Below, piece after piece: positions 10,341-51,123 of a stretch of 64,000 nucleotides of DNA. Numbering within the stretch: position 1 is the stretch's first letter; every line of letters starts with the position of its first letter. The position numbers and the translations under genes are program-made. Below the pieces are notes generated by a model that saw nothing but the letters and a program-made list of their open reading frames with translations, was not told where the DNA came from and did no database searches. Origin of the DNA: Mesostigma viride (taxonomy: Eukaryota > Streptophyta > Mesostigmatophyceae > Mesostigmatales > Mesostigmataceae); assembly GCA_009746045.1 (NCBI GenBank), contig RPFO01000102.1, positions 1,931,578 to 1,995,577 on the forward strand, read 5' to 3'.

Positions 10341-10537
10341 TACATTGGACTAGGTAGACAGCAGACTAGAGGGGGCCATGCAGCTGTGTGCCAGTACTAG
10401 TGCCTGGTACGCGTCCGTCCCTTTTTCGTGGTAAATTTTACAGTACCAAAAGAAAAGGGGGGGCAGCGCCTTGAACTCACGGTCAAAAATCTAGAGATAT
10501 AGTGTTAGATATCTTTATTGCGTTGACCTTCAGAACG
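10341..10537. repeat. Segment related to 60310-60500
   Basis: This stretch holds no ORF. Parts of it (ACCATGTRAGGTGC, GCCAGTACTAGTGCCT, AAGGGGGGGC..GCGCCTTGA) reappear in the same order at 60360-60490, and a weaker relative is near 46120-46300. It is probably a dispersed repeat of unknown type. Confidence 0.5.
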
Positions 10538-13100: not shown

Positions 13101-13124
13101 TCGTGGTGATTTATCATATGCTTC

Positions 13125-15658: not shown

Positions 15659-18600
15659 TCATTCTAAAGGTCCTGCCCTAGTAACGGCGCGGAAGCGTGT
15701 ATGCTGATGCCGGCGATGGAGGCTTGGCTCAACAGTGCCATCACCAAATGCAAGGTCACGTTCATGGATGACGACACGATCAAGTTCCAGAATATAGAAC
15801 ACAACAGGGCGTGTACTACAGGGCGACGCATGTTTGCTGGTCCCCATGCGCTTGGTACGCGGATTTGTAAATGGCGTCTCACTGGCTGAATAGTTGCAGA
15901 ATGACGTTGAAGGCCTGCCACAAACATGCACAAAATATGCTGTCTACTCTTCGTGAAAAATCAAGATGGAGCCTACCGGAAAACATTGGCAATCCAACGC
16001 ACACCTGTTGTTAGCCATTTTCCCAGCAGACTGTACTCCAATGTTCCTGCTTCCATGTCAGCCATAAACTGAGCAAAGCTGGGTGCGCTGATCATGCTTC
16101 CCTGATACTGCACTGCCTTCGGCCCGACCTCTGTCCCTCTGCTGTTTGTCACGCCGAAGACTGACGGTCGTGACACCTCACGATCCAGTCCAGGATTGAA
16201 CAAGTCAATGCAGGCTTTGCCTGGTTCTCCTTGCTGCCAGGGACAGACAGTAAACCAAAGCACATATACGGGCTCCAATGAAAGCGTCAACAAAACAAAT
16301 CTCATCAAAGCAACATAATCATGGCCAAAAGGTAAGTGTGTTGGTAAGCAAACAAGCCTTGTATAAGCACATCCGTAACAACCTGCACATGCATAGTCAT
16401 CAGTACATCTAAATGCAGACAAGGCAGCATTCTTACGAAGACATACAAGGAATGGTTAGATTGGCTAACCTTGGTGTCGATACCTAATCAAACCCTTGGT
16501 GGATATATAAGAAACCTTACAGCCCAACATAACAATGCAGTTCAAATCCCAGCCGTGGAAAGAAACGTTGAACATCGCTTGCATCTTTGCTTATTCTGTG
16601 TGATGATGACCTGCAATAAGCTTCCCTTCCTACAATTTGTGGTTTGATACGGTTGTGCATGAAGCAAATTAATTAACTGAATGAAGGAAAGGTGCAAGGT
16701 CAAAACTGGTAGGCATGTTTTGGTGGAAGACCCCATTCAGCTGGTCATGCTATAGAGGGGGACATCATTAGGATAACTCACCTCTACTTCTACAAAATCG
16801 ACACGATTGTGATACTTTGCTGCCAGGATTTCCCAGATCCAGCCAGGGGGTGACTTGGCCTTGAAATAGACCATCTGCGTGGTCACACGCCAAAGAGAAA
16901 GAACAATTAAAAAGATGGTCAACAATCTTGTGACACTGGAAATTATGGTTGGTCGTTTGGCGCCTGCAGCGGTGACGCAAGATTGTATCACGTTGTTGGC
17001 GTTTCCCCTCACATCATGCATATGCTGACAACAGTAAAGCGAGCTTGGCAAGAGGCTGTACTAGCTCCCAACCAAATTCCAAGAAGGATACTCCAGAAGG
17101 CCCAGCTCAAGTCTCAAAATATTACTTAAGTCTTCACGAGTAACAACAAAATGGCACGACATAAAAGGTGCACGTTAACCTCTTCATAAAGCATACCCAT
17201 AGCCATGCTTACAAGTTACAATATCAACGGTTGACACTACATCATTAACGAGCCATACAGCTCACTTGGCAAGAATGTTCAACACTAATATTATGCAGGG
17301 TCCAAGGTCTAGCTTTGTAGAAAGGTGAACAAAATTGCAGATAGTATGCTTCTGGGTAGCCAAAACGCCACAAGCACAGGCAAGCGGCTGAAATGGATAA
17401 ACAAATCAAAGCGCCCATCTGCAAGCATCCTGTATACATGTCGTAAGAAACCAGCACGATAGTTAGCAAACCGAAAAGCCGTTGATCGTAAAAAATCACG
17501 AGAGATAAAGTGACGCCAGAAACAGATATTGTTAGCAGGTCAGACTGCCATGCAAAAGACAGGCAAGAGACTGCAATAGGCCCAAGGAATGCTCACCTTT
17601 GGAAAGTGCTTGTTGCTCTCGAGCACAGTGCACAGTCTGTGATCCAGAAATAGGAAGGGTGAAAGGAAGCAAACGCACCAACAAAGCCCGGTTAAAAAAC
17701 CAGCGACCAAATAGGAGTATGAAGCAGGCCATGCACTTCTGGCCCCAAGGCAATCACATCAGTTTCTACCAATACGCAACACCAGGGATGCAACATCGAG
17801 CCTACTATTCTTGCAAGGTGCCCAGACCAGCTGTACGAAAAACTTTCCACCTTAGGTGAACATGAGGATTGGGCTTCACAACAGGTTCCTTTTTTTCCCT
17901 GACTAACCTAACATCCAGTGATCCGGAAAGCCGATGTAGCACTTTGAAATCTTTTCCGCCTAAAGATCTGCGATGGCCCTCCCATGGCTATGGAAGCCGA
18001 CAAGATTTCCATGGACATTTAGAAATGTAAATGCAAAGGTTCAGCGTCTTCATCCTACACCCCTATACCATGGGGTAACCCAATGCAATTGTTACCCAGA
18101 GCACGGCGCCACTCTACCCTGCTAACCAATCGGCAATCAGCTTTCTGCTGCTTAGCAAAGCACACATGCACGGAGCGCCAAAGACGCGGGCACCCATGCA
18201 AATGCAGGATGCAGGTTGCGGGAGATGCGGAAGAGAGCTGGCAAAGGAACAAAGGATATGATGAAAATTTGGCAAGGCTGTGACCAGTCGACTGTTCATA
18301 TTATCGACAACCACACAAAGTGACATTCCTTACTTGGATAGTCGGATATTTGGCCAAAACTGGTGTCTTCTTGCACATATACGTATTCCCTTGACTAGCT
18401 AGACCACTAGTGCATTCCTCTCATCACATGCCATACTTTGAGCAGCACATGCATCTATTCAGTGTTGGTGAATTCTCAGGTGGATGGACAGGTGCACAGG
18501 TGCAACCAAGGTGGCCAGAGGAGCTTTGGGGTCATTGAACACAGTGGTTGGGACACCACATGCGAAGCCAGAGATGCGACTTACGTCTCAGCCGCCACGG

Positions 18601-21577
18601 GGGGTGCCAAGCCAGGCAGTGTCGTCGCCGCGAACATGTTCAGCTTATGGGTATCCAGTGGCCGAAGCGTGAGAGGGTATTGGATGCCTCCCTGCCAGCC
18701 ACCAAATGGATAGACCTTGATGCTGGGGAACTCAGAAACGTTTTCCTGTGGTGGTCCGAAATAGGCACAAATGAAAGACAGCACAAGCCCCGAATGGAAA
18801 ACTGCGCCCTATACGCTTGGTTTCAAAACAAATTTTAAGACGTTCAGTTGCGTACAATGCGGCATCAATCACCAGAGCATTTCACAGCTTAGTTTCTGAC
18901 ATCAGTTGCTTTCGTTCACCAAGTTGTCATAGTAATTTCTGCTATTCATAGCAGCTGGCACATCATACTCAGAGCTCACGAAGATAGCCAATCATCTATC
19001 TCCTTACATGTTTTGTGAAGGCAGAGTCGGCAGGCTACATAACAAACCAGCCCACACCTGCCCCACAGGCTCATTTCAGCTCTTGCACACCTGTGTTTCA
19101 AAGTTCCAATCAGGGCTGCTTCTTAAATCCCCCTGATTTTTTCCTTGTCAACTGAGTTACATATTCTAATTTGTGCATTCCTTTATCTTGTCTGCATTCT
19201 ACAAAGACCATGCATGGTCTAAAAAACGAGATGTCCCATGCTTAACCAAACAAGGTTGCCTTTGCTGCGTGGGGCCGTCTGGTGAATGAACGCGACCCAC
19301 CGCTTTGCACAGCACTCGTTCAGCCACGCAGTTCACCACTCCAATGTTAATTATGCTGCATGCACAGGGAAAAAGAACGGCAAGGAAAAGAAGTTGGCAA
19401 GACAGCGGTTGGCCAACAGCATCATAAGATATCAGGCAATGCAGTTGCCGGGTTACGCTAACCTTGTTGTTTATGACTCAGCAAACCAGTAGGCTGACTC
19501 CAAAACATAATGTGAAATATACCTTGGTATATAGTTTGACAGGAAAACAGGCAAATCACATGTTAACTCTCAAAGCGCCCAACTGTAGGGAACACTCGAT
19601 GCTGGAATTGAGCACTGCAATCTGCCTAAACAACACCAGCTTTGAATACTCATGTAATAGCTTATGTTTCTCACAGCATCCATAGGCAATGTCTATGCAG
19701 GCTTAAATGTCTCTACAAGGTACTATGAGAAAAAGACATGGGTAAATATGACCTGTTTTGTGGCGTTTCAACGTTGCTGTGCTCTTCTGACGGCAGTAAT
19801 AATGCTGGCTCTTTACACCAAGGGCAACCTGTACTTTTGTGACTTCCACCTTTTCAAGTTGGTCTCATGCTTTGTCGAAACATGCACAATCGCAGAGGCA
19901 TCCAAATGTGGCATACGTAATAGTTATTACAAAAACCAAATTTCCAGTCTGAAGGACTGGGTGAGGAAGAACGAACAGGTCGTGGTCGTTGCTGCGAACG
20001 GCGGACGCATATGGCTACAGCTCTGATCCCTGAAACCTGCCACCTGACATACTCTAGCAGCTCCTCCAAAGACTTTTAACCAGGTAATACAACCTGGACT
20101 GCTGTCGAGACTAAAACACGACATACCCTTGCAACTCCTTTCCCGATGCCTCCAGCTTGCTCCTCAGATCGCCGCACTCGTCGCCTGCCAAGCAATGAGA
20201 GGCAAAAAACATACATTGTGGGAGTCTGAGGCCGATATTAACGTATCTGTTCCCACAAAAAGCGGTGCTCTTTCTATCCTGGCGTATCTCAGCCTTTCCG
20301 GCCCTTTTGCCAATGGAATACGGACCCCCCATTGCTTCCACTAGAACGGTGTATGTCTTAACCTCAGTACACAAGCACACACCATGGGCCGTATCATGGG
20401 GTGCAAGCTTGGGACCACCATACTTGTTCGGAGCAAAAAGCTCCCACCGATCTTGCCACACCTCGTCGACAGCTTTTGTGCACCAAAGAAGGCTAGTGAT
20501 ACAACAGCGTCCCGCTAGAAGATACGAGACTATGCGCTTGCTGGGCTGATGATGGTGTATACCAGCCTCATGCACAACAAGGATTCTGGCTTTATAACTT
20601 GCAACCGGCACAGCAAGGTCATGGGAACATGACGCGAAGGACCAACATAACAATCAGTACAGGCCTGGCATGGCATTAGGATGTCGTAGCATGGACCAAG
20701 CCTGCCACTATACTAACTGTTTCGACTCATTGTCACAGGCGGGTGGATGGTCTTCAGGAGCTGGAGGGACATATATGGGCAGCAAGGATTCTATTAATGG
20801 TTACATAGAAGGGGGGGGAGGGGGGGAGCTTACTCGTGCTGCATCTGGGACATTCAAGGAGCATCACCATCTAGATCTTGAAGAGGGCCTGATGACCAGA
20901 AGGAGAGCACCCCCATACTACACGTGCTACTGCATGAATGCTCACATTAACCGCACGGATCTTCTAACCAGTGATATTCAGATGCACGAAACTTATGATT
21001 CCAAACCAGCACACACCACAAGGCCACTCACATGGCAAACTGTAGAAGAGGACGATGCTCATCTGGTCCCTGGCAGCCATAACGGAATTCCACGAGGAAG
21101 ACCTCAGCCACGCGATTAATGTCCAGGACGCTGACGTCAGCTCCAGGATGTAGTATGATGGCCAGAAGAAGGGGTCGTACCGCGCCCGGTGCCAGGGATA
21201 CACGGGTAGACTGTCGCTGGTTGCACCAACTGTTGGCCGTGGGTTGCCCCTGCCCGTGGAGGGCCCCTTTATTTCACTGATGCTGCCCTCGTCGCTGGTT
21301 GCACCAAATGTTGGCCGTGGGTTGCCCCTGCCCGTGGAAGACCCCTTTGTTTCACTGATGCTGCCCTCGTCGCTGGTTGCACCAACTGTTGGCCGTGGGT
21401 TGTCACTCCCCGTGGAAGACCCCTTTGTTTCACGAATGCTGCCTTCATCGCTGGTTGCACCAACTGTTGGCCGTGGGTTCTCGCTCCCCGTGGAAGGCCC
21501 CTTTGTTTCACTGATGCTGGCCTTGCCTCTGTCGTCCTCAGCTTTTGGTTGCTTTGCCTTTTCTTCCTTGTCCGCAT
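15659..21577 (-). CDS. Thioredoxin module 3 and terminal exon
   Basis: Exons: C 21577-21032, Y 20184-20127, X 19355-19301, F 18745-18585, Z 17636-17597, E 16874-16782, D 16233-15977, end 15815-15659. Exon C starts DADKEEKAKQ, then carries four 26-residue repeats, then the strand MSIVLFYSLP. The C/Y junction gives CDEC, an intact CxxC redox site. X reads IINIGVVNCVAERVLC, F reads SEFPSIKVYPFGG. E (MVYFKAKSPPGWIWEILAAK) and D (DLFNPGLDREVSRPSVFGV, with Arg-Pro in the cis-Pro position) form the second fold. D runs on to GVRWIANVF, and the last exon adds VVFYILELDRVVIHERDL and ends with TGA. The D-C join from module 2 is in frame (intron 21873-21578). Confidence 0.8.
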
Positions 21578-24500
21578 CTGCAGGCCAATGCCAATCCAGG
21601 CAGTCGCAAGCGGCATGAGCGGCCATTGTCCTACAATCCCACACCTAGTCCTACAGGATCCAGGTGCCTCCCAGCCAGGGTAAGCCATGCCAAAGGCTAT
21701 GACACGACAAGTCATGGCGCACCAAAAATTGCAATACTGCAAGACTAAAGGACGAAAGCAATTTGTCAGGTTCACCTAGGGCTGGCGATGACATGAGCTG
21801 GGCAGCATACCATGACCTGAAAATGAACTCTCAGGGGGTAGTTGACTGCAGCTCATCCCGAGCCGCTACTCACCGAGCACACGCGTAAGAAACGTCGCCA
21901 GGTATGACGGTTGAACACGTCCTGGGGGGTGCCGGATCTCAACCCCTCTGCTCGTAATCCCCAGAATGCAGGGCAGCGAGTCCACCCGGTGTCGCTTCGC
22001 AAACAAGTCCGTCTTCACGTCGGTCACCTGCGCACAAGCCAATCAACAAACAACAGGTGCCACTCACACATCAGCTTCTTACAGCTTTGAAAGTCCAAAT
22101 GGCTTCACTGAAAAAAAGGAGAGGAAAAGTGTAAGATAGAGGATGGGACCCGTGCACGCACAATGCCGAGGCATTTCACATTATGCCCATGTTTGAGCCA
22201 GCTCTGGCGCTGTGGTTAGATGAAACCGCCCTGGCGATCCGCTCCTGTACAGATACTAATTGTAGGTGCATGCTAGCACAGAGCGGCTAATCCATAATCA
22301 AGGTTGGATCCATGATGGTTAATTCAATTCCTTAATTAATTAACTAATTAATTAATAATTGATAAAACACGTAACTGTGTCACGTGGTTGCCAGGACAGA
22401 GTAAAGGAACCTTCAACCCTTATACAACGAGGAGGGAGGGCGCCCTATCTTCTTTCACTGCCACAAGTGGGCAGGCCACAGACCCTAATTCAGTTCCTTG
22501 GAAAAGTTAAAGTAGCAGAAGAAGTCTCATGAATCCACCCGCATGCTAAAGCCTAGACGGGGCGGCATTGGCAGACATGACTTTACAGACATGACTGCAC
22601 AGACATGTAGCAATCAGCCAAGCGTTGAGGCTCTTGGCCTTTGTGCTGTCCTCATGCGTGGCCGCCAGCCGTGCAACCTCGCCATCAAGTTCCCAAGCTT
22701 TAAGCCCTTGCCCTCGCTCTCTGATGGAGGATTATTGCTCAGAAAAGGACATTCATTGGTTCTCATGGCCCGGTCTCATCCTGCAAGAGGGGCTCAAACG
22801 GGGCTGGACCTGCCGTTGGTAGTGATAGTTACTGATCCCCGCTACAAAGGGCGCAAACTGGGCCATGCACGGTGTATGCAATTTGAGTTTGGACCAGCCC
22901 GCACCTGGGTGATGCCGTGCAGGCATAACACTACCATACGAAACAGGTGCACTGTTTACTGAAGCGTTGACGGCGTACAGACTTTGTACCTGGTACACAC
23001 GATGTCCTCCGGGGTGGTGCCGGTAAGATGGGGAGGTAAGTCAACGTCCTGACGAAAGGGCGCCCCAATGACCCCCAAAGAGGAAATGCTAACTGCACTT
23101 TCTCTTGCATGGCAACAGTATTCTACGAGCTGAATTGACAGAAGTGGCACTCTGCTGGTGCCAGCTCCATTGCTGATCTTTGGGAAGTGAAAGACTTACA
23201 ACTGGCCCTGATTGTTACCCCACCAAGGAATAAACGTAACGTTGCTGACACAACTGTAGCTCAGACCAGAATTCGGTCAAGGCTTCCAAACAAGGGTGGC
23301 ATGCAATTAGAGCGGCATTGCAACAACGTGCACGTGACCAGTACAAACTTTAGGAAAATGCGTGCCTCGCTTGGGAAGTCTTGCGGGGATACCGCACAAA
23401 TAGAGGCATTCCGCGTTGTCACTGCAGTCACCTGGGTTCATGAACTTACATGGACAAAATACAGCACCAGGTCCCGCTCAAACTTTGCAGAGAGCGCGTG
23501 CCACACCCAGGGAGTTGCTTCTTTGTCAGAAAAGAGGATCGCCTGCAACAGCAGTGGAGGCAAGACACAGGTGCAGCCCACATGATTCCAATTAGTCCAC
23601 CCATGCATAGAAAAGCACAGGATGGCCCTGAGCAGCCACATAGCCCCTCTGCCGGCAGGACAGGAAAAAGTGGGACTCAAGCTAACAAATTGGTGAGGCA
23701 CCAGGTACGTACAGAGAAGGCATGAAATGTAAGACCCCTGGAGAAATCACAGGTGGACTTGACCTTGACAGAGCCTCTGATCTGGTCAACCAGCCTGCCC
23801 GCCTGCCAGCCCGCCTGCCCACCCACCAAGCTGCTAACCAGCTGGCCGGACGAGCGAGCTGTCAGGCAGCGAGACAGGGGCCCAGAGGGCAGGGCCCATC
23901 CAAGTCCGCCTTTAATAGCACATACAACATGATGCGTTCCACTGACTGCTGTCACACCCACCTTAACAGAAGGCGCTGGCTGGTTGACAAAAGCATCCAG
24001 ATACCTGGGAGGCGACATCACAGCAGAACAGGCACATATGTCAAACACCCCAAAGACATAGTAGTATTAGCAAATCAGTAAGTTGTGCTGTCAGTATGGT
24101 CAGCTATGTTGTCACTGCACCTTGGGTGCCAGCCACCACGTTTCAGAAGCCACAGTTGCTCTTAGCCCTCCATGGGGCCAATGACCGTAAATGAGTGCGT
24201 GCATGCGTGGAAAACCGATAATTACCTACGTTTCTTATAGGGAGATGAGAAGGCCAATGTCTAGACAAGACCGACATGATTAGAAATGCACCCACTCACA
24301 TTGACGCACAGTACACCGATTGTGCTGACCCCTAGAGTCTCAGAAAAAGTCATAAGCTAGTTACAACTAAAAGACAAAAGCAGCACAACAGAAGATTACA
24401 GGCCAACATAATGCCTGATTACATGCAAATGCAACTATTCAGGTTTTCTGCAGTCAAAAGATTGATCCACCGGCATAAAGTGGCCCTTGTTTGTTGTAAG

Positions 24501-27500
24501 CTTTTTCATGGCTCAGGCACCCATTCACCCCCACATTGAGGCCGTCTTTCTTGAATTGAGGAAATGAAAATTTTCCAAAGAGATCCGGTACTTCATGCTG
24601 TCCCTTATGGCTCATCATCCCAACCTAACTAGTCTCCCACTTAGGATGAACTGTCAACCCTCTCCTTCAGCTCTCCTTCCTTCTTCTTCACCTCCCCTTC
24701 AACTCTACTTCACCTGTCTTCACCCCATGTTGCACGCCTCTTTCCCGGTACGTGTTTAGAAGCACACGGCACACATGTCAGAAAAGTATGCGGGTTAAAA
24801 TCCTCCCGTCGAACCATATCCGCAGCTTTGGGCATGTAATCAACTTTTTCCTGCCTTCTAGACAGAAACGGCCAGTATTGCTTCAGTAAGTTCCAGTACC
24901 CCTAAAATCTGGGTACTTGTGCTACTTAATCCCATGCTACCAGTCGGAAAGCTTTCCCATTAGGAGTGTTCAAAGCACCTGTAAACAAAAACATAGGATG
25001 CCTGCTAGTGTAGCAATGGGGCGTTGGGCTTTGAGAGAATTTCAACCAGTTTCACATTCATGCCGACAGATTTTTGGGTGCAAATGGGCAAATTTCCACT
25101 TACTGATTTACAGAAAATTGCCTTTTTGGCAAAATGAAACTAGGCTACCCATGCGTTGGTTCGATCTCAGCCACAGCTAGGCATAGCCTACTCGAACGAT
25201 TCCATAGCCAGACCCTTACGGATGTATCTGAATGTCAAAGAGGGAAACTCTCTCCACGCCCAACCCCACTAGTGACTCACGTCGTGGAGCTGGTTGAGAC
25301 CACATGGTTGTGGACACCGGCCATTGCGAAGATTCTCAAGTCCATGGGAGAGGGAGGCTGTGCCGTGCCCTTGTAGGTGCTGCCCCGCTTGTCATCTCCA
25401 AACGGGAACACCACCAAGGCGGGGAGCTCCTGCATGCCCCTCTGGTGAGCCGACAGGCAGCAACTCGGGCACACAACGTTGAGTCGAAAAAGGCACCAAA
25501 CAGGTCAGCTGGTTTGACAACCTGTGCATGCATAAACACGCAAATGTCCTGCTGGTTATAGCCACCAAACTGCAAACATAGTTCGAAAGCAGTAACTGTA
25601 AGGAGAAAATCTGCCTCGTGCAAGGGTGGCATGGCTGACTGTATGTCTTATTAGGGCCCTACAATGTTCCTTTTTTCAAACCGATACAGATAATGAACAT
25701 GTTGCCTGGGGGAGTTTCTGCACCTTCACATGGGCAGCTCTTCGCATGTTGCAGCGCAGTTCCTCAATCTGCAAGACACTTAAGTAGAAACATTAAATGA
25801 TCAGGAGAGTGGATGCTCGCCGAATTTCCACCGGATACTGGCCCATTCACATGAACACTGTCTTTTGCTACTGAAACTGGTTTTTCTCAGTGCAAGGCAT
25901 CACCCATTTGAAGCAGCAGAAAGGGTTTGTTTAGTTGCAAGCTTTCCACACACAGCAGAGGCCATGGCCGCCCAGATAAAATTATCAAGTAACGTGCATG
26001 TTTGCAACTTGCCCGTTGAAACTCTACGGCGGAGCCAATTTTCTGAAGAGCCTCACCCTTATGCTTGCAAATTCGGGACAAAGTCGGTGGATGTATGGAT
26101 GGATTGACGGATTTTCATCCCCTATTCCTATGTTTTCTCACGTGTATAAGCTTCGCCAATTCTGGCGAACCCAACGGTTCTTCCGAAAATTGGCTCCGCC
26201 TGATTAATTACCTTGCTGCAAAACTGGGTTTCTGCGGCGCAGTCGATGACGCCGACGTTCATGATCCTGTGCAAGGCCACCCAAGAATGACCGCCACACA
26301 AGGAAGTTGTTGACCATCAAATGAACCCTTGAAAAAGCCATCTGGGAAATATGTAAGAACCCTGCTCCTGCCTGGGAGCAACCTATTAACTAGCTCACTG
26401 GGGGGCTTATCCCCGGTCTTCTGTTTGCTACTCACACGTGTAACGGTTTACACCATGGAGGAAAAGGCACGCTATGGTCAAAAGAAGACAGTATAAACCC
26501 AATTAAAGTAGCCCGCAAGCAGATTAACCCAGTCAATTATTTTCCTTGCCCTTGGTATTACGTGCATGGGGGTGCTCTACATGGAACATGCATACGCAGG
26601 CCTCTGCACCAGAGATGCATTTCATGTTGCCTGTAGTTGGGCATTTTCATGAAAGTGGGGAGCATGCAAGCTCAGCTGCAGGCATGAATGCATGAATCAC
26701 ATACCCTCGCATATCTTCCGCCAAATTTGACAGGACGAGAAGGTCGTGATCAGGGCCTGCCACGAAATGAAGCCAAGTCAACGAGATGGAGCATTCAAGT
26801 GCATAGCTGATTATCAGACATAACTGGCTTGATTGCATCAGACGTAGCTTACATACTCCTTGTTTCGCCACACACATGCAGGGTGATTAAGATCAAAGTT
26901 AAGTCAAGTACCTAACATCAGTCTTTGCCACGACTACAATGCAGTAAGTCGGCATCCATATCAGGATAAACCGATGTGAGATAACTTCCTGCTAGATGGC
27001 AGTTCTTCAGAGTAATCACAGCGTGGCGACAGGACACATGACCAATCCGCGACGCGCCTATCGAAAGGCATGTCGCAAAACGGCAAGGTCGAGCATCGAA
27101 GTCATAATAAGAAAATTGGCCACTGATGAGCGGACTTTACGCGTCCATGCTGTGCTAGGAGGTGCATGTTCAAAATATCAAAAAACATTATGGGAGGGTT
27201 GTCAATGATTCTCATGCATAAATAGAGGATAACATGACATGATTGAAAATACAAAGAAAAAGAATGCAGACTAATTTGGTGAGCAGCAGCCCTAACCGAC
27301 CTCCCAGGAATTCTACAATGAGCTTGTTGGGCGGTAGGGCAGGTTTACCCATAATTCCAAACAGAGCAGCTACACTACAGTCTGCACCAGATTGCTGCAT
27401 AGAGCCCACCGTGAATTCAGATCATGTTCCTGGAAATTGTATACTACTGCTTTTTATGGTAATTACTGGCAGTAAAAATTGGTGTCCAATTCTAGCTGTT

Positions 27501-33500: not shown

Positions 33501-34411
33501 ACCCCACCGAAAATGCATAACAGGGAGGCCCACAACAGCCCGCCCGAGGATAAGATATAATGGCTAGCAAAAAATGATGGATAGCGGAATATTCGGTTTG
33601 TAGGAATAGCGGGCACCCCTTAGCTTGTTAATGCCGCCATAGCTCCCAGAAAATCATGAAAGCTCAGCGGTGTAGCGATTCATTCAGGTGACCAGGGTTA
33701 TAGGTGATAAATGGGCTGCTTCGCTGGACAATGGTAAAACAATAGAAAAAACCACAGTGGAGACTGTAATGTCAGGCAGGTCCAAGAGAGCTGGTGTATT
33801 ACTGGACTGACCAGATTGTGATATCGAGCAGCCTGCTATAAAGTATCAAACTTTGGTCAATCCAGTATTATATCAGCTCTCTTGGACCTGCCTGAGCTCA
33901 GGGCGCAGCTATTCCCATATTTTTGAGCAGCTACAAACATGCGCGCGCACCTGCGGAAAGCACTTGTGATATCGGCTGGGGTTGCCTGGCCAAGGGTCAA
34001 CCCGAGGATCTGGAACACAGGGGGGCAGGAAAACAAACACAAGAAACAAAAGAATGAAAAGCAGGAGACTTGGAAGAAAGGCGGATTACCAATTATAATG
34101 AGCCCCTCCTGTGGCCACTACGGAGGGTTAGCCCAGCAGCACTGCCAGCATATTCTAATCCTGCACCACAGAGTAAACACCATTAAATGAACAACTGGGT
34201 CAATGTTACGAAGAATGCAACATATTGACAAGCTGTGCAATAAACTATAGTATAATAGACGATAATTGCCACGAAATTCACATACCTCGTACGGGTCCTT
34301 CCCTGAGAAAATGTGCTCTTCAGTCTCCTCTTCCACATGCTGCTCCTCCTTTCGTTGCTCCCTTTCCTGTTCTCTAATTCTCTCGCTGTCCCTCTCCTCT
34401 TTCTCCTTCTC

Positions 34412-34495
<84 letters not shown>

Positions 34496-34521
34496 CTTTT
34501 CCTGCTCCTCTTGCAGTCTCT
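15659..34521 (-). CDS. J-domain/multi-thioredoxin co-chaperone gene (composite exon model)
   Basis: A multi-exon gene reconstructed from GT..AG sites and phase. Order 5' to 3' on the minus strand: J-domain exons (34521-32631), an uncertain part (32366-28094), thioredoxin module 2 (28093-21874), thioredoxin module 3 (21577-15977) and a terminal exon (15815-15659, TGA). The layout, one J domain followed by several thioredoxin folds, matches ER J-proteins such as ERdj5/DNAJC10 and DNAJC16. In that family the J domain recruits Hsp70 (BiP) and the thioredoxin folds handle disulphides of client proteins. I could not see an ER retention motif at the C-terminus. A possible signal peptide is MPLWLSCFMCASACRA, read in frame from an ATG at 34570. 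The alternative is that 34521 is a splice acceptor joined to the exon at 36650-36615, making one larger gene that reaches 45801. Confidence 0.7.
21214..21525. repeat. Four 78-bp repeats encoding 26-residue linker units
   Basis: Units start at about 21214, 21292, 21370 and 21448. On the minus strand each encodes a version of GSISETKGSSTGRGNPRPTV plus GATSDE. The repeats sit in exon C of module 3, between the thioredoxin folds of modules 2 and 3, and would make a flexible Ser/Thr/Gly/Pro-rich spacer. Period is a multiple of three, so copy number can change without frameshift. Confidence 0.92.
21874..28093 (-). CDS. Thioredoxin module 2 (exons C-Y-X-F-Z-E-D)
   Basis: Exons: C 28093-27629, Y 26756-26705, X 26266-26212, F 25429-25281, Z 24160-24121, E 23542-23450, D 22027-21874. 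C holds a long Glu/Arg/Lys-rich linker, then TLPENVLRL-type sequence and the strand MAIVLFYNGT. The C/Y junction makes the active-site turn CPDH, so the second redox cysteine is missing. X gives GVIDCAAETQFC and F gives ELPALVVFPFG, typical of the second half of a PDI-type fold. E (AILFSDKEATPWVWHALSAK) and D (VTDVKTDLFAKRHRVDSLPC) form a second, cysteine-poor thioredoxin fold. All junction phases agree (C ends 1, Y ends 2, X ends 0, F ends 2, Z ends 0, E ends 0, D ends 1). Z is 40 nt with a weak acceptor, and was placed because phase and length match the other modules. Confidence 0.8.
28094..32366 (-). other. Unresolved exons between J domain and thioredoxin module 2
   Basis: The gene must continue here because exon C of module 2 needs an upstream exon ending in phase 1. 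Possible coding pieces on the minus strand are the J5 region from 32366, a 148-codon frame at 31911-31465, and an overlapping 124-codon frame at 31600-31226 containing MTMPVITLNKQKPSLLGMLE and SSVYLTLLPTKGDLTG. Neither frame matches a family I recognise, and I could not link them by splice phase. The 28200-31200 part shows no convincing exon. Confidence 0.3.
32631..34521 (-). CDS. J-domain exons J1-J4 (HPD motif)
   Basis: Four exons join in frame: 34521-34286, 34009-33951, 33485-33412 and 32663-32631 (236, 59, 74 and 33 nt). J1 is a Q/E/K-rich charged region with a 26-glutamine tract, ending GKDPYE. J2 adds ILGLTLGQATPADITSAFR (helix I-II). J3 adds SLTKIYHPDVNKRP with the HPD triplet that stimulates Hsp70 ATPase, then NDEFMALRQ (helix III). 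J4 adds AYQTLIDSQSR (start of helix IV). Together they give a J domain of normal length. Splice sites are strong (for example CCGCAG|GTGCGC, CAAG|GTGAGA, CACGAG|GTAAAT). J1 begins and J4 ends at phase 1. A likely fifth exon starts at 32366 (VLHDEARHHPGP), completing helix IV; its end is unclear (candidate donors near 32180 and 32160). Confidence 0.85.
34415..34492. repeat. (CTG)26 / (CAG)26 trinucleotide tract in coding exon
   Basis: Twenty-six uninterrupted CTG units on the plus strand, read as CAG (glutamine) in exon J1 on the minus strand. A pure tract of this length is expected to be length-polymorphic. It lies in the charged linker upstream of the J domain. Confidence 0.95.
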
Positions 34522-35849: not shown

Positions 35850-38546
35850 AAAGTGATCATTGCCACGCACTTGCCTGCTGGCATCTGCACACTCCTGCTC
35901 ATGCGGATCCACCAACTAAATTCAACGCACAAGCACTCATACTCTGCGATTGTCAGGTAGTCTCGACAACATTGCAGCCAGAATGAATAGCTAGGGCACC
36001 CATCCTGCCCTAGCTGCGATACAGATCCCATGCACAGCATTTTACAACAGATTGCGCGATTCAGACAACTAAGGCATGGCAGGACTCTTCAACCCATTGC
36101 GGGGCAACGAAAGCAAAGAAAAAAATGATTGAAACACAGGATTTGAAAGCAGGTATTGGAAACACAAATCCTAGAAGTGAGAATTTGATATTTCACAACA
36201 GATAGTAGGAAAGCATGCATCCAGCAGCCAGTGCAAGGCAAGTTCATGAGCGGTGTATCATTGTGGCCCTTCAGCTCGGGTGTGAGTACGGGCACACATC
36301 CTTGTGCAGAGCCTGTAACAGCACACTTCCTGCAGCGGCACAGCGAAAAAACACGTCTTTGCAGGGGCCCACACAAATCCTGGTGCATGGCCAGCGGATC
36401 CAGAACGCTTGCCGCACTTGCGCCATAAGCCTGACCAGACATCCATCGAGATACAAGTAGGATGATAGGTATAGTAGTATGATTAAGTGTGACTACTGGT
36501 ATTTTCGACCACATAAAGCCGTACAGCCTGGATGGGCGACACAAGAGTGATGCTGTGCTGATACTTGAACCTGGGCGACACCTGGAATGCTGTTCCAGGA
36601 TGGCAGTGGCTCACCTTGTGCCTGCTTGGCCTTCTCTGCTTTGTCCGCGTCTGCATGACAACCATTGAGCAGCCAAGGGCCGACCGGCAGCAGGCAAGGG
36701 TGGCTCAGCAGAAAGAACAGCAAAAAAGACAAGGTTCCAAATCTATAAGCAGTCAAAATTTTGATAAGTAGACGCAAGATGGAAAGCAATGCCGGCTGTG
36801 ACACCGCCAAGCTCCAGCCGATTGCATGGACTGCACAAGGTACGTGGACTGCACCTTTAGTGACAAAAACCAATGTCAATCGAGCCCATGGCGCCCAGCC
36901 AGGCATCCTGGCCAACCCCGCCAGCGGCCAGACTGCATGGTGCTATTGCGCAGAGGGACTCACCTAGGATTTGCTTCAGGAAATCCGCCAGGTGCTTCAT
37001 TCGCAGTTCTCCATAGGTATACCTGACCTCCTCCTCTCCCCCAGTGATCCCCACAACGGAAGGCACCGAGGGCACCTGGTACCGTGAGGCCACAGGGTTG
37101 GTCTTGACATCGGAAACCTGCGCACAACACAAATAGCAGGCCTTGAGGGGGGCAGGGAACATCAGCATCCCCTCTTGCCATAGAAAAATGTAATAGAGCA
37201 TCTCTGCCGAGTGTTGCTGGCATAGCAAATAGAACCACGCAGACGTCAAGAGAGCATCAATGATTGAACCGGACACGAGTGAGGAGGCACCCTGCAAACG
37301 GACAAGAGTGCAGGAAACCAATACTCTGCCCCCAAATTCTGAATTAAATTTCTTATGAACAGACTTGCGAATAAAGCCTGGTTGTTCTTAGTTGCTGCAC
37401 CTTAGAACTCCTGCCGACTGACATACCTCTTGTGGCTGTTATCAGCCGCTGTTTTCTTACCCGCCTTGGTTCCCACTTCCTTCTAGCTGAAGTATAGCCC
37501 TTACAGCAAGCACTGATGGCGCCTCTCTATGCCCAAGCTCCGTGCAACTTCAGGCCTGTAATGACATCTGATCCATACCTCGTAGTCATCCGTCCCCAAG
37601 GCACTCAAAGGACATACTACAGTACAGTACAGTGCAAGCGCGGCGTTGCTTTTGTATTGACCCAGCAACAGCCCTGTTCTGGCGTCACACCAGGTATAGA
37701 AGAAGGTCACATCAGAATGCGGCCTGTAGCAATAAACGTTTTCGAACAACTTGCTACCCTGCATCGTTCATTGACAGGGTTGTGACACGCTAGCCCTACA
37801 AGGCACACTGTACATGCGCGCGCTCCACAATGTGCGATGCAAACTCCCATAGGGAAGCAGGACATGTGCAACCAGAGTGGGGCCTTCACAGAGTCCTTAG
37901 GGAAGTCAACTTGCTAGGGAGCCCGTTGGTAACTTTGGCATGAGCGCACGCGGGCAGCCAACTCACATGGACAATGTACAGGTCCAGATCGCGCTCGAAC
38001 TTTAAGGAAAGGACTTCCCACTGCCACGGTATTGTATTCTGACCCGAAAACAGGATCGCCTGCATCCGCCACGGAAGGGAAACGTAGAAATGGCACGAAC
38101 GATGCCGCTTCTGCCAGTCATCTCATGAATCTCAACAAGGTGTAGCACATTAGATCATCACCTGCCTGCACAAGCCTACGTGCATAAGACATACTTGGAG
38201 ATTGTCAAAGGTGGATGGGTGGGCAGCAATGGTAAGCAACCGCTGAGGAGAGAAGCCCTCACGTTATATCATCCAGAGTGAGCGCATCAATCGAGGGCTT
38301 ACTGGGCCGGCAGGGAGTGCTGAGCGCTCAGGCCAGGTGGCACGGAGACAACATGGCCTGAACCTTGCATCCGTCACATGATGCAAACAATACACATGCA
38401 TAATGGGCTGTACAGCGTTTAGCTAGCGACATGGTCAAAACAAGCGGAATGAAGACAGATAACCTAGATATCAACTCAACAGCAAATTGCTTTAGCTTAT
38501 GGTTGCCTGCCGTCGCACCGATGGGCATAACACACTCCAGAGGCAT
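35850..38546. repeat. Segmental duplication, copy 1 (contains exons E, D, C')
   Basis: Direct duplicate of 53240-55660, with many stretches above 95 percent identity, for example the 154-nt exon D and its flanks. Copy 1 has about 300 extra bases near 36030-36340. Homology stops just before exon Z at one side and near 35850 at the other. Confidence 0.92.
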
Positions 38547-41500
38547 TTTGTTAGAAGTTTAAAGACGACAACAGGGCCCAGGATGTACATTTTTGATGTC
38601 CATGTAGGAGGGGAAAAAGTGCCCAATGTGATTGTCCTGCCATCCTGTCACACTGTAGAGTATGATAAGGTCATTGCCGATACACAAGCAAACTGCGATG
38701 GGCTGTATGTGTTTAGCTAGTGGCGTGGAAACACCAGGTAATCCTAACAAAATTTACCTGGATACCAAATCCACGGCAAATTGCTTCAGCTTATATCTAA
38801 ATCTCCAACCTAGCATCACGCAAAACGTTTAGGGTGGCATGCCGTTGTCAGATCAGCCGACAACCTGCAGGGAACGCTAGCCTGCTGTCATACCCACCTT
38901 GGGCATGCCGGGCTTTATGCCAGAAAGGTTTTCGAGGCTGAGCAGCAGCGATGGGCAAGGACACGCACCAAACGCCGATAGACAGAGACGAAAATTGGCA
39001 GGTTCATAAACATCATTAGCTTCCAGACTGGGCATTCTCCAACGAGTTGCACTCCACACCAGACATTGTGCAAACTTCCAGTTGAGCAAAGCTCGTGGTC
39101 ATGCAGTCTCAAAGGCCGGCACAGCACTGTTACAAGCAAATAGGACAGGCGCAAAAGCGCGAATACGTGAAGACACTCAGAGGCCATGGGTGCCAAGCTG
39201 CAAAGTTACAAATCTTCTGCTCTCTGCTCAACCCTCCATCCGCACCCCCAGTGCATCCCGCATTCATCAACTGGCCGCCTCATCCGTTGGAATGCAGAAG
39301 AGCTTGCTCCCGTGAGTTCCACCAAGCAAAATAGGAATCATGGGCCAGCGGTCATGCCTAGTGGGCTTAACTGCAGCTAACTGCCTACCTCTTCACAAAG
39401 AAAAATATGTGTGATGCAGGTTGCAGGCGTCCACTCGCACGACAAGGGTGAGACACAAAACGCTTCCTGGCACCCGCCTTTGCAAACATTTTTAAAAAAT
39501 GCATGGGGAGGTATGCTTGGGCAGCCATGATGACTTACAATCTGATTTCGATGACGCGGCCCGTGACGCCATCAATTGCAAAGGTCCTCAGGCTAGTCAA
39601 GGACGGTATGCTGTCATTGCATCTGCGGCCCCGCTTGTCCGCCCCAAAGCCATAAGCGAAGATGCCAGGATACAAAACCACGTCGTTCTGAGGGGTTTAC
39701 AGACAGTGCACGGCACGCACACCGCGAGGTCACAGGGAGGCCAGCCATGTGAGATTGTGCTTTCCCAGCGAAAGCAGCATTGGTAACATGGAATAACAAC
39801 ATGGAGTTCTCGGAACGTTTTCATACAAGGCACCACGCACAAGGTGATGTCCTTAAAGGCACGTGCCAATCCACTTCTAACGCTAACCTACTGACGCTTG
39901 GGTTGCACCAGACAACAATAGTTTTTTACAAATAAGTACAGCTTAATAGAGCCAACATGCACTGTAGGGCTCCTAACAAGTGCTAAAGGGGGTCTTTGGG
40001 TGGCTGCCACAAAAGTGGACTTATGCCTATTCCCCTGGCCTCTTTTGGACAACTGGTATAACAAGTTCAGGGTGGGTGGGTGGGGGACCAAAAGAGGCTT
40101 TGCTGCCATTGCCTCGTCTGCCTAAATGCTAGACCACAAGGGCCGTCAGGCTGGCGCGGCGCTGGCACTGGCGTTGGTACCGAAATTGCAACGGTACCGG
40201 CGCTGGCGCTGGCGCTGCGCCAGGTCTGCCCCTACCCTTCCCCCGTCACTTGTGCCACTGCTATTAAAGGTTCGTTTTCACAAATTCGTACAGATTTTCT
40301 AAGTCTTTCTACCGCGCGCAGGCGGTAGACCGCACACAGGCGGAACGAACCACTACCGGTCACAGCCGGCGCACCTCCTCCTCCTAGTCTTACGCGGCAA
40401 TTCTATTCGGCCGCACCCCAGACTTCCGTAGTCCCGCTATACCGCAGATAGGGTGAGCAAAAGCTCGGATAATCCACTTCTAACGCTAACCTACTGACGC
40501 TTGGGTTGCACCAGACAACAATAGTTTTTTACAAATAAGTACAGCTTAATAGAGCCAACATGCACTGTAGGGCTCCTAACAAGTGCTAAAGGGGGTCTTT
40601 GGGTGGCTGCCACAAAAGTGGACTTATGCCTATTCCCCACCTTCCCTTCCTGGCCGACTTCGTCAGCAAATCCGGAACGTCGTTTCACATCCGCCACGTC
40701 GGGTTGTTGTCAATTCCGGTGATACCGCTGCAATGTCGCCGTCGGTTAGTAGGGCGCCCCCCTCTCATGCCAGCTCGTCCCCCGCCTATGCTGCCGCTAC
40801 CCCCGTCACATCTCATGGCAAGGCGGCAAGGTCCCCAGCGGGGTCGAGCATCTCGTTCCCTCCCACGTGGTATGCAGAGCGTGCATTCGAAAGGCGAAGT
40901 TGGGGGGTATCGTCCCCCCCGACTCCGGTCCGGACTTGAGGATTTCTAACCATGGCGACTGGGCAGGTTGCCCCGCAGGCCAATTGACGCCTCAATTTCC
41001 TGCGCTTCCATCCCTTCAGGAAGGCCGCTATCTCATACGTCACTCAGTCTACGAAATCGTAGTGCATTATTTTATGTTATTTTTCCATCTCGCGGCCCCG
41101 CGGACCTAGATGCACCCCACTTCTCCAATCTGGGCCGATAGAGGGCCAAATTTCGAGCCGCCGCTCTCCTTGCGCGCGGCTAACATTACTGATTAAATTT
41201 CCAGCCCTCCCGCCGCAGCGGCAAGGCCGTTAGCCCGTCTAATAATCGCCATAGCGAATTAGTCACGTTGGCAGCATATGCCAGCAAATTGCGGACCAAA
41301 AGAGGCTTTGCTGCCATTGCCTCGTCTGCCTAAATGCTAGACCACAAGGGCCGTCAGGCTGGCGCGGCGCTGGCACTGGCGTTGGTACCGAAATTGCAAC
41401 GGTACCGGCGCTGGCGCTGGCGCTGCGCCAGGTCTGCCCCTACCCTTCCCCCGTCACTTGTGCCACTGCTATTAAAGGTTCGTTTTCACAAATTCGTACA

Positions 41501-44500
41501 GATTTTCTAAGTCTTTCTACCGCGCGCAGGCGGTAGACCGCACACAGGCGGAACGAACCACTACCGGTCACAGCCGGCGCACCTCCTCCTCCTAGTCTTA
41601 CGCGGCAATTCTATTCGGCCGCACCCCAGACTTCCGTAGTCCCGCTATACCGCAGATAGGGTGAGCAAAAGCTCGGATATTGTCAGAATATAGCCGAATA
41701 GCCGCATCCAGGACTATTTCCTTATCCCCCATCAATTTATGTACAGGCCGGATTGTGGGCTGGCATCCCTAATAATTGCTACCCTCCGCTGCGTATTTGG
41801 CGACCTTGAGAGCAATTTACGCCGCTGGTAGCATGTGTGCGCAACATCGCATACATTAGCAATGAGGCGCAAATTTTAGCTCTAGTTGTACCGTACTCGC
41901 AACAATTCATCCCGTCCGATTTGGTTACGGGATTAGAAAGTGAGTGAGTGCCGAAGCTGTACCATCGGCCCTTGTGTGATTCCTTGCACCGTACTTAGCA
42001 GTACTGTTGTATGTGGTTTGCCGGCGTAGGGCTCGGCTGTACCGAGACTTTGGTGCCGGCAGGCACGCAGCGCAAATAAGGGCAGATTTTGTACGTCCAA
42101 GTCCGTACCAAATCAGTATGTGTTATTTCGTGCACACAAGCAGTGCAGAGTTGCGCGGACAAGCTGTGCTGCATGGCACTGCTTGGCAGCGCCATGAGCC
42201 GCCAAAGCTCATTGTGCGTGGGAACGTTCACTTTTGGTACCCGGTGCACATTATCTACGAAAATCTGGCCAGGACATAAATACTTACGTATTTCAAATGC
42301 TTAATTCAATGCCAATTTACTTTTTCATCAACTAGATAGCCAGTGCCGAAAATCCTAAAGATCTTCCTCCCATACCGAGTTTGTGGTTTTGTGTGTAATT
42401 TTGACAGCCATCATCTTTCCAAAATCACAAAGTGGATTGCTATAAAAGGGAATGCAAGGCATGGAATTTCCGGAATATTTTCAGACAATGCAGGCAAGCA
42501 AGGTAACATCCTGGAAGGCTCATGCCAATAATGTTTCAAAGCCAGTGCCTTGCTATGGGAGGCCCCATGAGGCATCATGTATATTTACTAGTATGCCTAT
42601 GCCTCAGGTACCAGGCTCTTTACAGCGTGCTCTACAGGCTGGCGTGCGATGGCACACTAGGTATAAACGCACGTCCCTTCTCTAGATCCTGAGATGGGGT
42701 CATATGAGGCCAGCAATGGGCGCGGGATCGCAGCAGCGACCTTGTCCACATGAGATGAGCTTGCCTCTTGTCCGCCACCTGGAGGTTTCGCAATCGCTAT
42801 CAGGCCAGAAAACACGTGTTTATGAACACAGCTTCACACACCAAGGTGCTGTGGTATTTCTGCCCGCGGGCTAAGAGAAAGAGCTTGCCCCACTCGCTTC
42901 AATGTGTCATGGCCGGCAATGCCAATCGATAGACGATGGCGTTCCGATCCCTCAGAAGTGGGCATGTGGGGTTTATAAGTGCCGCGCTTATGCGGTCGGA
43001 CAAAGCGGCCACCAGTACAGACCCTGGTCATCCAGAGAAAGAGAGACGAGTGCCCGGTTACTTTACCTGGATGCACAGCTGGGTCTCAATGGTGCAGTCC
43101 ACCACGCCCACATTGATGACCCTGCACAAGCAACGGTCATGCCACAATCATCACGCAAGCAGGGAGTTTCGGCCGGTATTGGCTCGCCTCATGCTGCCAC
43201 CTTGCCTCTCAGACCCTATCTGGGTGGTGGACAACAGCACGTACAGATGCTCGTCATGAGCCTAGGCGACCATGCCTTGGGCACGGCCCAACATAGCATG
43301 AACCTGGTCACAAAAGGCTAGCCCCTAAGCATTGCAAGGCATGGATGGAAGCACATAATATTGAAAAATAAACTAGCAACGAAAGGGTCCATGTAAGCAA
43401 CGAAACAAAGCATCAAACATCCACTTGAAATCCACCCATGCCTCACGTTGCCATCCATGCCCATCCCAACTAATGTCTGCTTTTAAGAAGCGTCCTAACC
43501 AAGGTCCCATCACTTCAGAACAATTCATGTTGGCAGCACCCGGCGGCAGTCACGCAGATATCTTCCTTGAAGCAGGTGCAATAGGATCGCAGAATAGCCA
43601 CAAATACTCATGGCCTCTTCACGTACATTACATCAGCTAGTCCAATGTGCCAGGCATCAAAGAAGACAAGAAAGAAATGACCCCAAAACCCAGCCATTGA
43701 CAAGGCGTGGGCCGATCGCAGCCATGCAGAGGAACAACTGATTTGATTTAAAACTGCGTGACAGGTTTGCATGTCTGATCGCATCTATGGCGGAAATAAT
43801 GCAAACTGTGCTCATGCCGCACATCGACAACAAATATAGATGGCTGATAGCTGATAAGCATTCTTGACACAAAGAAGACGCAGCCAATGCAGTTGCCATA
43901 GGGAAAAATGACAACGTATACCACCAAGAATACAAGGCGTCATGCCCACTTAAACAGCCATGCTGACTAATAACCGTGAGAAAGGCTTGGTTGTTAGGGA
44001 CAGCGAAAAGGGAGGGTCACACCAAGGGCCATGCACACCAACTGGCAACTGGCACAAAAGTGAAAACCCAGCAAAATCTCCGCAGACTAACCCCCGCATT
44101 TCTTCCGCCATTGAAGCCAGAACCTGCTTTTCGGTGTCGCAACCATAGCCTGCACCGCGATGTAGGCGCGACAGGGAAGGGTGGTGTCACGGATTCCATG
44201 TCACGAAATAAGCTGAGGATTGAAGAAGCATTAAATTAATAAGCAAAGTCGCAAAGCTACCGAGACATTTTGCTGGGCATACAGCCCGGGGGTGTGCCTG
44301 CCTGGCTGCACAGCTAGGACACCAAGTGACTGTTTTTGTTGTGAAGACATAGCACACACGTGCATATGCGTGATAGTAGCAGGGAAATGAGCATCTGTTC
44401 TCATGTTGCGCCAGCACACACGTAATCTTAGTGTGGCCAGCGCCTTGACGTGTTGGATTCTGATCATCACAAAAGCTTGTGATTGCAACTCCAGATCTTG

Positions 44501-45801
44501 GAATCAGATGGGGTACCTTTGGTACCAGTGCCGGGATCAACATGAAACTGGCTGGCCCATCCAAACTGCTCTACCCCCCCCCCCCCCGCCCCCCCCAAAG
44601 AAAGGTCATGCATCTCACAACCCCGCCCATGCAGTGGTTATAGCAGCAGTCTTGCTTATCAATGCCAGCATCTCCAGCAAACTAACTGACCCTGGCCCTT
44701 CCCTTTCCTTCTACCCAGATTGCCAGGTGAGCCACTTGTAGCAGCTTGCCAGCTGTCCGATTTGCCCGAAATAAAACATTAAGATCACTAAGCTCCCAGG
44801 AAGACCAGCAGTTGATTGATACAAAAAGTGGAGCCCTGCCACAAATGCAGCAGTTACAGTGGCCTTAAGGTTTCTCAATCCCCACGCGGAAGCAAGAAGC
44901 CTCCAGGGTGGGAGGGAAAGAAACAATCGCCGATCATTGCCGGCCTAGCTTGCTTAAGGCATGGCCCGCCGACCCACAAGCTGACACCATCCTAAATTAA
45001 TGAACACCGGCACGCGTCACGCGCCGGCCTGACCAGTGCTGAAAACGCCACTACAAATAACGTGGCTACGCAACCCGAGGCTAGTGCGCTAACCGTACTG
45101 ATAGTCGTACAAGGTTCTCAAGACTGACAAACATAACTCTTGCCCATCAACCCCTTGGGCCGGTCCCAATCCGCTATACAATAATTAATCACGACTCACT
45201 AAAAAAACAAATCAGGCAAAGATTCCGCAAGCAACCAGCCGACCCTACAGGTCCCTAGCTAATCTCATCCGGTGCAACCAAATACGAATCTTTGTGAGCA
45301 AGTTGTATAAAACCTTTAATTAACTTTTTCGGACCGCTGACTAATAGCCACCGACCCTTATAAACAACCGGGTCATCCAAGGAAAATTCAGGCAAGCATG
45401 AAACCTTTTGTACAGATCGAATATATCAGCCCATGTCGCAGACAGCCTTCCCCATGCAGGCCAAGGCATAGCGGCCCTATCTTTCCCGCATGCGTTAATT
45501 AAACTATATTAAGAGAAAAACGATTCGGTAATCCAACGTACTCCTGACATTTTCCCGCTTAACAACAGAAATGCAATGATTGCCACAAAAAATATGAAAA
45601 CCCTAAAAGCAAGCTTCCCAGTTTCCCACCACTCACATGTTCCCTGGTGAAACAGGACGATGGCCATCTCATTTTGGGGAGTGACGTAGCGCCCCCAGGA
45701 TGCAGATGTCAGCCTCAGCACGTTCTCAGGCAGTGTGGAAAACGGATCTTGTGACGCATCCTCACGCTGCTGCCGCTGCCCTCGCTCCTCACGTGTGCTT
45801 T
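36615..45801 (-). CDS. Thioredoxin module 1 (exons C-Y-X-F-Z-E-D-C')
   Basis: Exons: C 45801-45637, Y 44149-44092, X 43121-43067, F 39687-39539, Z 38937-38898, E 38059-37967, D 37117-36964, C' 36650-36615. C contains TLPENVLRLTSASWGRYVTP and the strand MAIVLFHQGT. The C/Y junction gives CYGC, an intact redox motif. X reads VINVGVVDCTIETQLC, F reads NDVVLYPGIFAYGFGADKRG, E reads AILFSGQNTIPWQWEVLSLK, D reads SRYQVPSVPSVVGITGG with a normal cis-Pro. C' is a 36-nt exon (ADKAEKAKQAQ) that is phase 1 at both ends, so it can join to J1 at 34521 or to exon C at 28093. The X-F intron holds the A-B-A-B element. What lies upstream of 45801 is unknown: either the start of this gene or a splice from the duplicated exons at 53.7 kb across the DIRS insertion. 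Confidence 0.75.
38564..38720 (+). repeat. Short repeat with open frame, copy at 60080-60248
   Basis: The two copies share ACAACAGGGCCCAGGATGTACAT and a plus-strand frame. That frame encodes PSCHTVEYDKVIADTQANC here and PSCDTVEYDKVIDDTQANC at 60 kb. Length differences between the copies preserve the frame overall. Coding origin is possible, but no family is recognised. Confidence 0.6.
39868..40035. repeat. Repeat A1 (168 bp)
   Basis: Begins AATCCACTTCTAACGC and ends GCCTATTCCCC; identical to A2 at 40471-40638 as far as I can read. Confidence 0.95.
40085..40470. repeat. Repeat B1 (386 bp)
   Basis: Begins GGACCAAAAGAGGC and ends AAAGCTCGGAT; identical to B2. It contains an internal GGTACCG..CGGTACC inverted repeat and a (GGCGCT)n-like stretch. 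Directly followed by A2. Confidence 0.95.
40471..40638. repeat. Repeat A2 (168 bp)
   Basis: Second copy of A, starting at the base after B1. Confidence 0.95.
41293..41678. repeat. Repeat B2 (386 bp)
   Basis: Second copy of B, 654 bp downstream of A2. Confidence 0.95.
44752..45526. repeat. Inverted repeat arm, partners at 57730-58275 and 59150-59855
   Basis: The reverse complement of this stretch is found twice at 57.7-59.9 kb. Landmarks are TAATTAATCACGACTCACTAA, GCATGAAACC and GCGGCCCTATCTTTCCCGC. Part overlaps the Y-C intron of module 1 and the possible retained tail at 45509. Confidence 0.88.
45509..45636 (-). other. Possible intron-retention tail with membrane segment
   Basis: If the donor at 45636 is not used, exon C of module 1 stays open for 42 more codons to a stop at 45509. 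This tail includes a hydrophobic run (VFIFFVAIIAFLLL) and ends SGVRWITESFF. The last part resembles GVRWIANVF at the end of exon D of module 3. It could be an alternative C-terminus or an old duplication of the gene 3' end. It lies partly in the inverted repeat 44752-45526. Confidence 0.35.
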
Positions 45802-50927: not shown

Positions 50928-51123
50928 ACGGGCTGAATCTACAGCAGGCGGGTCTCGCCCCCCCCCCCCATCCAGTTTAACGCCCTAACCGTCTGACAGG
51001 CTAGTGTGCGAGCATTAAAAGCCCGACTCATCCTATCGCGCCTACGGCCTGAGCGTACCTGCTGCCACCAGTCACGAGGTGGCAGGGGTGCTGGAAGAGG
51101 TAGTGGAAGAAGGCACCGCTCCC

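Follow-up and report, generated by a model that had tools for sequence, protein, structure and literature searches.

The question raised by this locus is whether a long run of repeated exons for J-domain and thioredoxin segments belongs to one gene and, if so, how such a gene came to hold so many copies of the same parts. The window is the whole stretch of 64,000 nucleotides analysed here, from Mesostigma viride contig RPFO01000102.1; coordinates are window positions (position 1 is the first letter), and those that are negative or above 64,000 lie beyond it. An earlier note had described a gene within 15659..45801 with one J-domain and three modules, limits that proved too small, as the extended model has two J-domains, six modules and 53 exons. 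We consider it probable that the locus holds one minus-strand gene (gene 1) for a J/thioredoxin co-chaperone of 2037 residues, which would have grown by block duplication and gained its internal J-domain by fusion. Two neighbouring genes of the same kind are called gene 2 and gene 3.

Gene 1 is predicted to start with an ATG exon at 122187 and to end at 15973, with 53 exons spread across 106 kb, and the window contains the last 29 of them. A hydrophobic start exon with J1 is followed by J2 and J3, by modules A, B, 0 and 1, by an internal J1-J4 cassette and by modules 2 and 3, a layout of J-(a-b)x4-J-(a-b)x2 in which the b halves are unproven. The exon series C-Y-X-F-Z-E-D is present three times within 15659..45801, together with a J cassette with 1-1 ends, and peptide searches of the flanking DNA recovered the additional exons, of the same types, in the same order and on the minus strand. 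Intron phases are identical in all modules, exon lengths differ in the outer ones (178 nucleotides for D of module A, 61 for Y of module B), and the ends of all modules, linkers and the internal J cassette are in phase 1. Each M1-type module (A, B, 0 and 1 in gene 1) is closed by a 1-1 linker exon of 36 nucleotides, L; behind D2, the front part of C3 consists of L-like sequence, and a D exon is followed by L, or by its fused counterpart, at all five internal module ends. The introns, with a median of 838 bases, have a GT donor in 52 of 52 cases and an AG acceptor in as many. The predicted product has no internal stop, although the exon scans discarded stop-containing exons and the open frame by itself is not independent proof of the gene. 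The same exon boundaries were recovered with paralogue references, but not on the opposite strand or in 30 shuffles, in a test that covered exon types other than C, J1 and the last D. The earlier description of a repeated exon series with identical phases, coding for a J-domain and thioredoxin co-chaperone, is borne out.

The hidden Markov model check proposed in that note gave matches above cut-off for both families. The internal J-domain of gene 1 matched Pfam DnaJ at 8.1e-15 (55.1 bits against a cut-off of 27.8), and the N-terminal one, taken without J4, also passed at 1.8e-11 over profile positions 1-47 of 63; both J3 exons carry the HPD motif. Pfam Thioredoxin was matched above cut-off in all six modules, three of them within 15659..45801. 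The active sites of the successive a-domains read CYSC, CFSC, CNGC, CYGC, CPDH and CDEC, so that CxxC is present in five of six, and two further cysteines of the X exon are invariant in ten aligned a-domains (of the near-identical modules p2 and p3 of gene 2, only p2 was included). In a sequence search of the PDB, DNAJC10 was the best match for modules 1, 2 and 3 (1.2e-15, 4.5e-20 and 3.1e-22), and an a-domain profile placed it first at 2e-45, followed by TXNDC5 at 5e-19; these whole-sequence values for DNAJC10 (ERdj5) sum over its repeated domains, and its best single stretch gives 2.7e-4 with module 2 and 4.3e-10 with the profile. By its DnaJ matches with HPD, the predicted product belongs to the J-domain proteins (Hsp40) and, by its Thioredoxin matches with CxxC, to the Thioredoxin/PDI superfamily.

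Tandem duplication of genomic blocks inside the gene would have raised the number of modules. Modules p2 and p3 of gene 2 are 99.4% identical over 5.4 kb, and E0-D0-L0 and E1-D1-L1 of gene 1 are 94.7% identical over 2.2 kb; these duplicated stretches are genomic blocks, introns included, and the near-identity of modules points to recent duplication. That modules can multiply, as had been claimed, is therefore seen in the p2/p3 pair and in the four versus three M1-type modules of genes 1 and 2. The symmetric phases on which the claim had leaned would be unnecessary, since unequal crossing-over at homologous module positions should preserve the frame at any phase.

The internal J-domain would have been acquired when a CAG-rich, Q-rich linker exon of the upstream module array was joined by fusion to the front part of a J-M2-M3 gene. 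In gene 1, the acceptor and first 35 bases of the internal J1 exon resemble C0 (45), CB (39), Cp2 (31) and Cp3 (28); the 35-base values are 16-23 with C1, C2, CA, Cp1 and CM2, and 10-18 with the three control exons that, rather than shuffles, served as the yardstick. The 3′ end of internal J1 resembles J1 of the start exons, and this composite of a C-type 5′ part and a J1-type 3′ part argues for fusion inside an exon. In gene 2, the intron upstream of internal J1 resembles those of C1, Cp2 and Cp3 (48, 39 and 34, with a shuffle maximum of 28). Fusion inside a linker exon, with one junction common to the two genes, would be the likeliest origin.

It is doubtful that exon shuffling through symmetric phase-1 introns, by insertion of a J cassette and multiplication of modules, produced this arrangement. 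The uniform phase-1 ends would suit such a process, J4 and L are 1-1 exons that can each be skipped without loss of frame, and no C-exon intron matches the one preceding internal J1 of gene 1 above the shuffle maximum of 29. The duplicated blocks, however, are long genomic segments with introns, for which homologous crossing-over would be frame-safe whatever the phase, and the composite internal J1 points to fusion within an exon and away from the insertion of a J cassette through phase-1 introns that the earlier note had put forward.

Another way to account for the internal J-domain is to divide the array into two adjacent genes, one with a J-domain and modules A, B, 0 and 1, and a separate one with a J-domain and modules 2 and 3, starting near 34.5 kb. 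Such a unit may exist alone, as gene 3 looks free-standing, with a J-domain and then M2- and M3-type modules, and phase 1 at the junction is also compatible with a separate first exon. We nonetheless regard this division as quite unlikely. Start-exon queries from genes 1 and 2 found three open starts, at 122187, 123530 and -43527, as well as one that is broken, near -44281, but none between L1 and J1, although an unrelated start exon could still lie there. Moreover, internal J1 opens with a splice acceptor and the C0/CB-like bases described above, L1 sits after D1 as L does after other D exons, and a junction of the D1-L1-J1 type also occurs in the paralogue, gene 2.

When module 3 was compared with that of gene 3 by the Nei-Gojobori method, the ratio of nonsynonymous to synonymous divergence (dN/dS) came to 0.16 for gene 1 and 0.14 for gene 2, at a dS of about 1 and with the Z and D exons of gene 3 excluded. 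Against gene 2, module 3 of gene 1 and of its copy gives 0.30 and 0.28, and module 2 gives 0.55 and 0.52; gene 1 set beside the young copy gives 0.21 for M2 and 0.30 for M3 on few differences. Module 3 is under purifying selection (0.14-0.30 over five pairs); constraint acts on the protein's end and is more relaxed in the repeated modules. A repeat locus that is decaying or partly mis-assembled, with pseudogene modules open only through youth, would fit the near-identical blocks (99.4% and 98.4%), the N stretches at 64001-67499, at 125000-129999 and at two places in gene 3, the M1-type dN/dS of up to 0.97, the loss of one CxxC and one GT site and the J-less M2-M3 block downstream, but it is likewise improbable in that frame and all used splice sites are intact over 53 + 44 exons, module 3 is constrained against gene 3 at synonymous divergence near 1, and the J-[M1]n-J-M2-M3 layout recurs in two genes.

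Several observations weigh against a single working co-chaperone gene of the proposed origin. Splicing of 53 exons into one transcript is a prediction from the sequence, and protein searches gave no convincing homologue beyond this genome. The fusion scenario draws on gene 3 as a form with one J-domain and two modules, yet this gene has two 5-kb N stretches inside, and M1-type modules are weakly constrained (dN/dS 0.40-0.97, nine pairs). Module 2 of gene 1 reads CPDH, without the second active-site cysteine, where the paralogue has CPDC. The candidate J4 of the N-terminal J-domain (119127-119095, reading AYQTLVYPVSR) has a GC rather than a GT donor and was omitted from the model; its 1-1 phases would allow splicing to bypass it in frame. 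The C-termini, RWIANVFR and MRWVGSFF, have no KDEL/HDEL end. When the internal J-domain was compared with the PDB, DNAJC10 was not among the 31 J-domains at E <= 1e-4, and radial spoke protein 16 ranked first (1.2e-10). Finally, the Z-E-D half has no match to the a-domain profile and only a marginal PDB match, to a thioredoxin domain of PDIA4 (E 0.038). As to the four, perhaps six, thioredoxin folds counted previously, three a-domains exceed the Pfam cut-off in 15659..45801 and six in the whole gene; a redox-inactive b-type fold for the Z-E-D half is weakly supported.

Gene 2 lies on the plus strand (123530-185842), head-to-head with gene 1, and as the two starts are 1.3 kb apart (122187 and 123530) they could share a bidirectional promoter. 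Its 44 exons found have the same phases and no internal stop, and encode a J-domain, three M1-type modules, a second J-domain, M2 and M3, with the active sites CYGC (three times), CPDC and CNVC. J3 and J4 of its N-terminal J-domain were not found; the 5-kb N stretch at 125000-129999, bridged with unknown residues in the translation, interrupts this domain, which falls below the Pfam cut-off. Gene 3 occupies the minus strand from -43.5 kb downwards and has one J-domain (with J4) and a complete-looking M3-type module; in its M2-type module C, Y, X and D were found but F, Z and E were not, and the interval from X to D contains the two 5-kb N stretches, which could hide further modules or a second J-domain. 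Beside it, at -44281 to -44418, is a second J1-like exon with an in-frame stop in its aligned start. A J-less tandem copy of M2-M3 at -6.2 to -19.9 kb is 96-98% identical to 15.5-28.3 kb, introns included, and the wider region from -19937 to -4886 is 87-98% identical by segment, again with introns. Module totals are six in gene 1, five in gene 2 and at least two in gene 3, counted as modules found, as N stretches could conceal more; the longer forms have two J-domains. A protein tree unites the M2 modules of the three genes (bootstrap 89, with only part of gene 3 M2 used) and likewise their M3 modules (100), and the M1-type modules group together weakly (52), with the within-gene pairs M0/M1 (73) and p2/p3 (100).

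Table 1. Predicted exons of gene 1 within the window, in order of transcription. Phases are given as start>end; yes marks exons in the boundary-recovery test.
Feature	Position	Strand	Length (nt)	Phases	Boundary test
E0, module 0	55092..55187	-	96	0>0	
D0, module 0	54089..54242	-	154	0>1	
Linker L0	53741..53776	-	36	1>1	
C1, module 1: linker + start of thioredoxin a-domain	45637..45801	-	165	1>1	
Y1: CYGC active site	44092..44149	-	58	1>2	yes
X1	43067..43121	-	55	2>0	yes
F1	39539..39687	-	149	0>2	yes
Exon between F1 and E1 (Z place in series)	38898..38937	-			yes
E1	37967..38059	-	93	0>0	yes
D1	36964..37117	-	154	0>1	yes
Linker L1, absent from earlier note	36615..36650	-	36	1>1	yes
Internal J1: Q/E-rich linker + J-domain start	34286..34521	-	236	1>0	
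Internal J2	33951..34009	-	59	0>2	yes
Internal J3: HPD motif, codons 33469-33461	33412..33485	-	74	2>1	yes
Internal J4	32631..32663	-	33	1>1	yes
C2, module 2: Q/E/R-rich linker + a-domain start	27629..28093	-	465	1>1	
Y2: CPDH	26705..26756	-	52	1>2	yes
X2	26212..26266	-	55	2>0	yes
F2	25281..25441	-	161	0>2	yes
Exon between F2 and E2 (Z place in series)	23968..24004	-			yes
E2	23450..23542	-	93	0>0	yes
D2	21874..22027	-	154	0>1	yes
C3, module 3: L-like start, 26-residue tandem repeats, a-domain start	21032..21577	-	546	1>1	
Y3: CDEC active site	20127..20184	-	58	1>2	yes
X3	19301..19355	-	55	2>0	yes
F3	18585..18745	-	161	0>2	yes
Exon between F3 and E3 (Z place in series)	17597..17636	-			yes
E3	16782..16874	-	93	0>0	yes
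Terminal D3, TAG stop 15975-15973	15973..16233	-	261 incl. stop		

The introns of gene 1 also hold two 4.9-kb elements that are 99.3% identical (47606-52496 and 77653-82545), with an inverted relative of 92% identity in gene 2 (184048-180877). By eye their open reading frames have the look of a tyrosine-recombinase (DIRS-like) retroelement; they gave no Pfam match. Fragments resembling reverse transcriptase, similar by eye only to long interspersed nuclear elements, lie downstream of gene 1 at 3560-13534, where an RVT_1 match at 4791-5219 scored 28.8 bits, just under the cut-off of 29.6, and inverted and direct copies of such fragments occur around the locus. The X1-F1 intron contains identical direct repeats of 168 and 300 bases (39868-41592). 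Elsewhere in the genome, 33 matches mark genes for chlorophyll a/b-binding proteins, as expected of a chlorophyll a/b alga; the product of one matches LHCII chains (6kac_Y, 5.1e-111), ranked below two long repeated chains of entry 9vfj that are named LHCI.

Turning to function, each module would supply two domains, of which C-Y-X-F encodes the first, a thioredoxin a-domain, and Z-E-D the second. The HPD motifs would recruit and stimulate Hsp70, which would be BiP if the protein resides in the lumen of the endoplasmic reticulum (ER), and the five a-domains with CxxC could act on wrong disulfides of the same client by reduction or isomerisation. Most likely, the gene 1 product works like ERdj5. 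With its hydrophobic start, its two J-domains and its six a-domains, the protein may be a reductase/isomerase co-chaperone that is tethered to a membrane and could engage two Hsp70 molecules; its most hydrophobic 19-residue stretch lies in module B and not at the N-terminus. A client usually receives a single J-domain from a J-domain protein, to which ERdj5 adds a fixed set of thioredoxin domains. We infer the ER location, the Hsp70 partner, the redox chemistry and the order of evolutionary events, the functional points from the protein families. More tentatively, it is conceivable that these genes form a length-evolvable family, in which an N-terminal and an internal J-domain bracket a module array whose copy number shifts by intragenic recombination, with two Hsp70 sites and up to six a-domains. 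Strains may vary in copy number, and isoforms of different length may result where 1-1 units are skipped in frame. Neighbouring genes with differing numbers of parts would make testable the effect of redox-centre and Hsp70-site number on disulfide reduction, and they offer a case of modular protein growth whose steps (unit gene, fusion and block duplication) may remain readable in the introns.

Among known systems, the membrane-anchored DNAJC16 has the combination of J-domain and thioredoxin in common with gene 1. The likeness to ERdj5/DNAJC10 of animals, the best PDB match, extends to a J-domain with HPD joined to several thioredoxin a-domains and to a 'VG-V-D/N-C ... C' stretch, both cysteines of which are invariant in the ten aligned a-domains here. 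ERdj5 ends in KDEL, whereas no KDEL-type C-terminus is present here, and the PDB matches of the internal J-domain do not lead to DNAJC10. As described in PMC10591012, ERdj5 has an N-terminal J-domain and six thioredoxin-like domains, four of them with CXXC, in two clusters; its HPD activates BiP, its thioredoxin domains reduce client disulfides, and BiP accelerates this via the J-domain (PMC10591012). Unlike ERdj5, gene 1 has two J-domains, one of them internal, and a regular six-module repeat. In the account of PMC3017771, J-a proteins with an N-terminal J-domain and one active thioredoxin a-domain occur in unicellular green algae and a few protists, among them CrDNJ of Chlamydomonas reinhardtii and proteins of Ostreococcus, Micromonas, Paramecium and Cryptosporidium. 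The gene 1 product would likewise join a J-domain to a thioredoxin a-domain in an alga; set against that description only, it differs by its tandem modules, its second J-domain and its total of six a-domains. Leishmania J14 resembles it, on a comparison by description only, in having two J-domains; that protein has 326 residues, and the domains given for it in PMC4488524 list no thioredoxin. Within the searches made, the novelty of this locus is the two-J module array.

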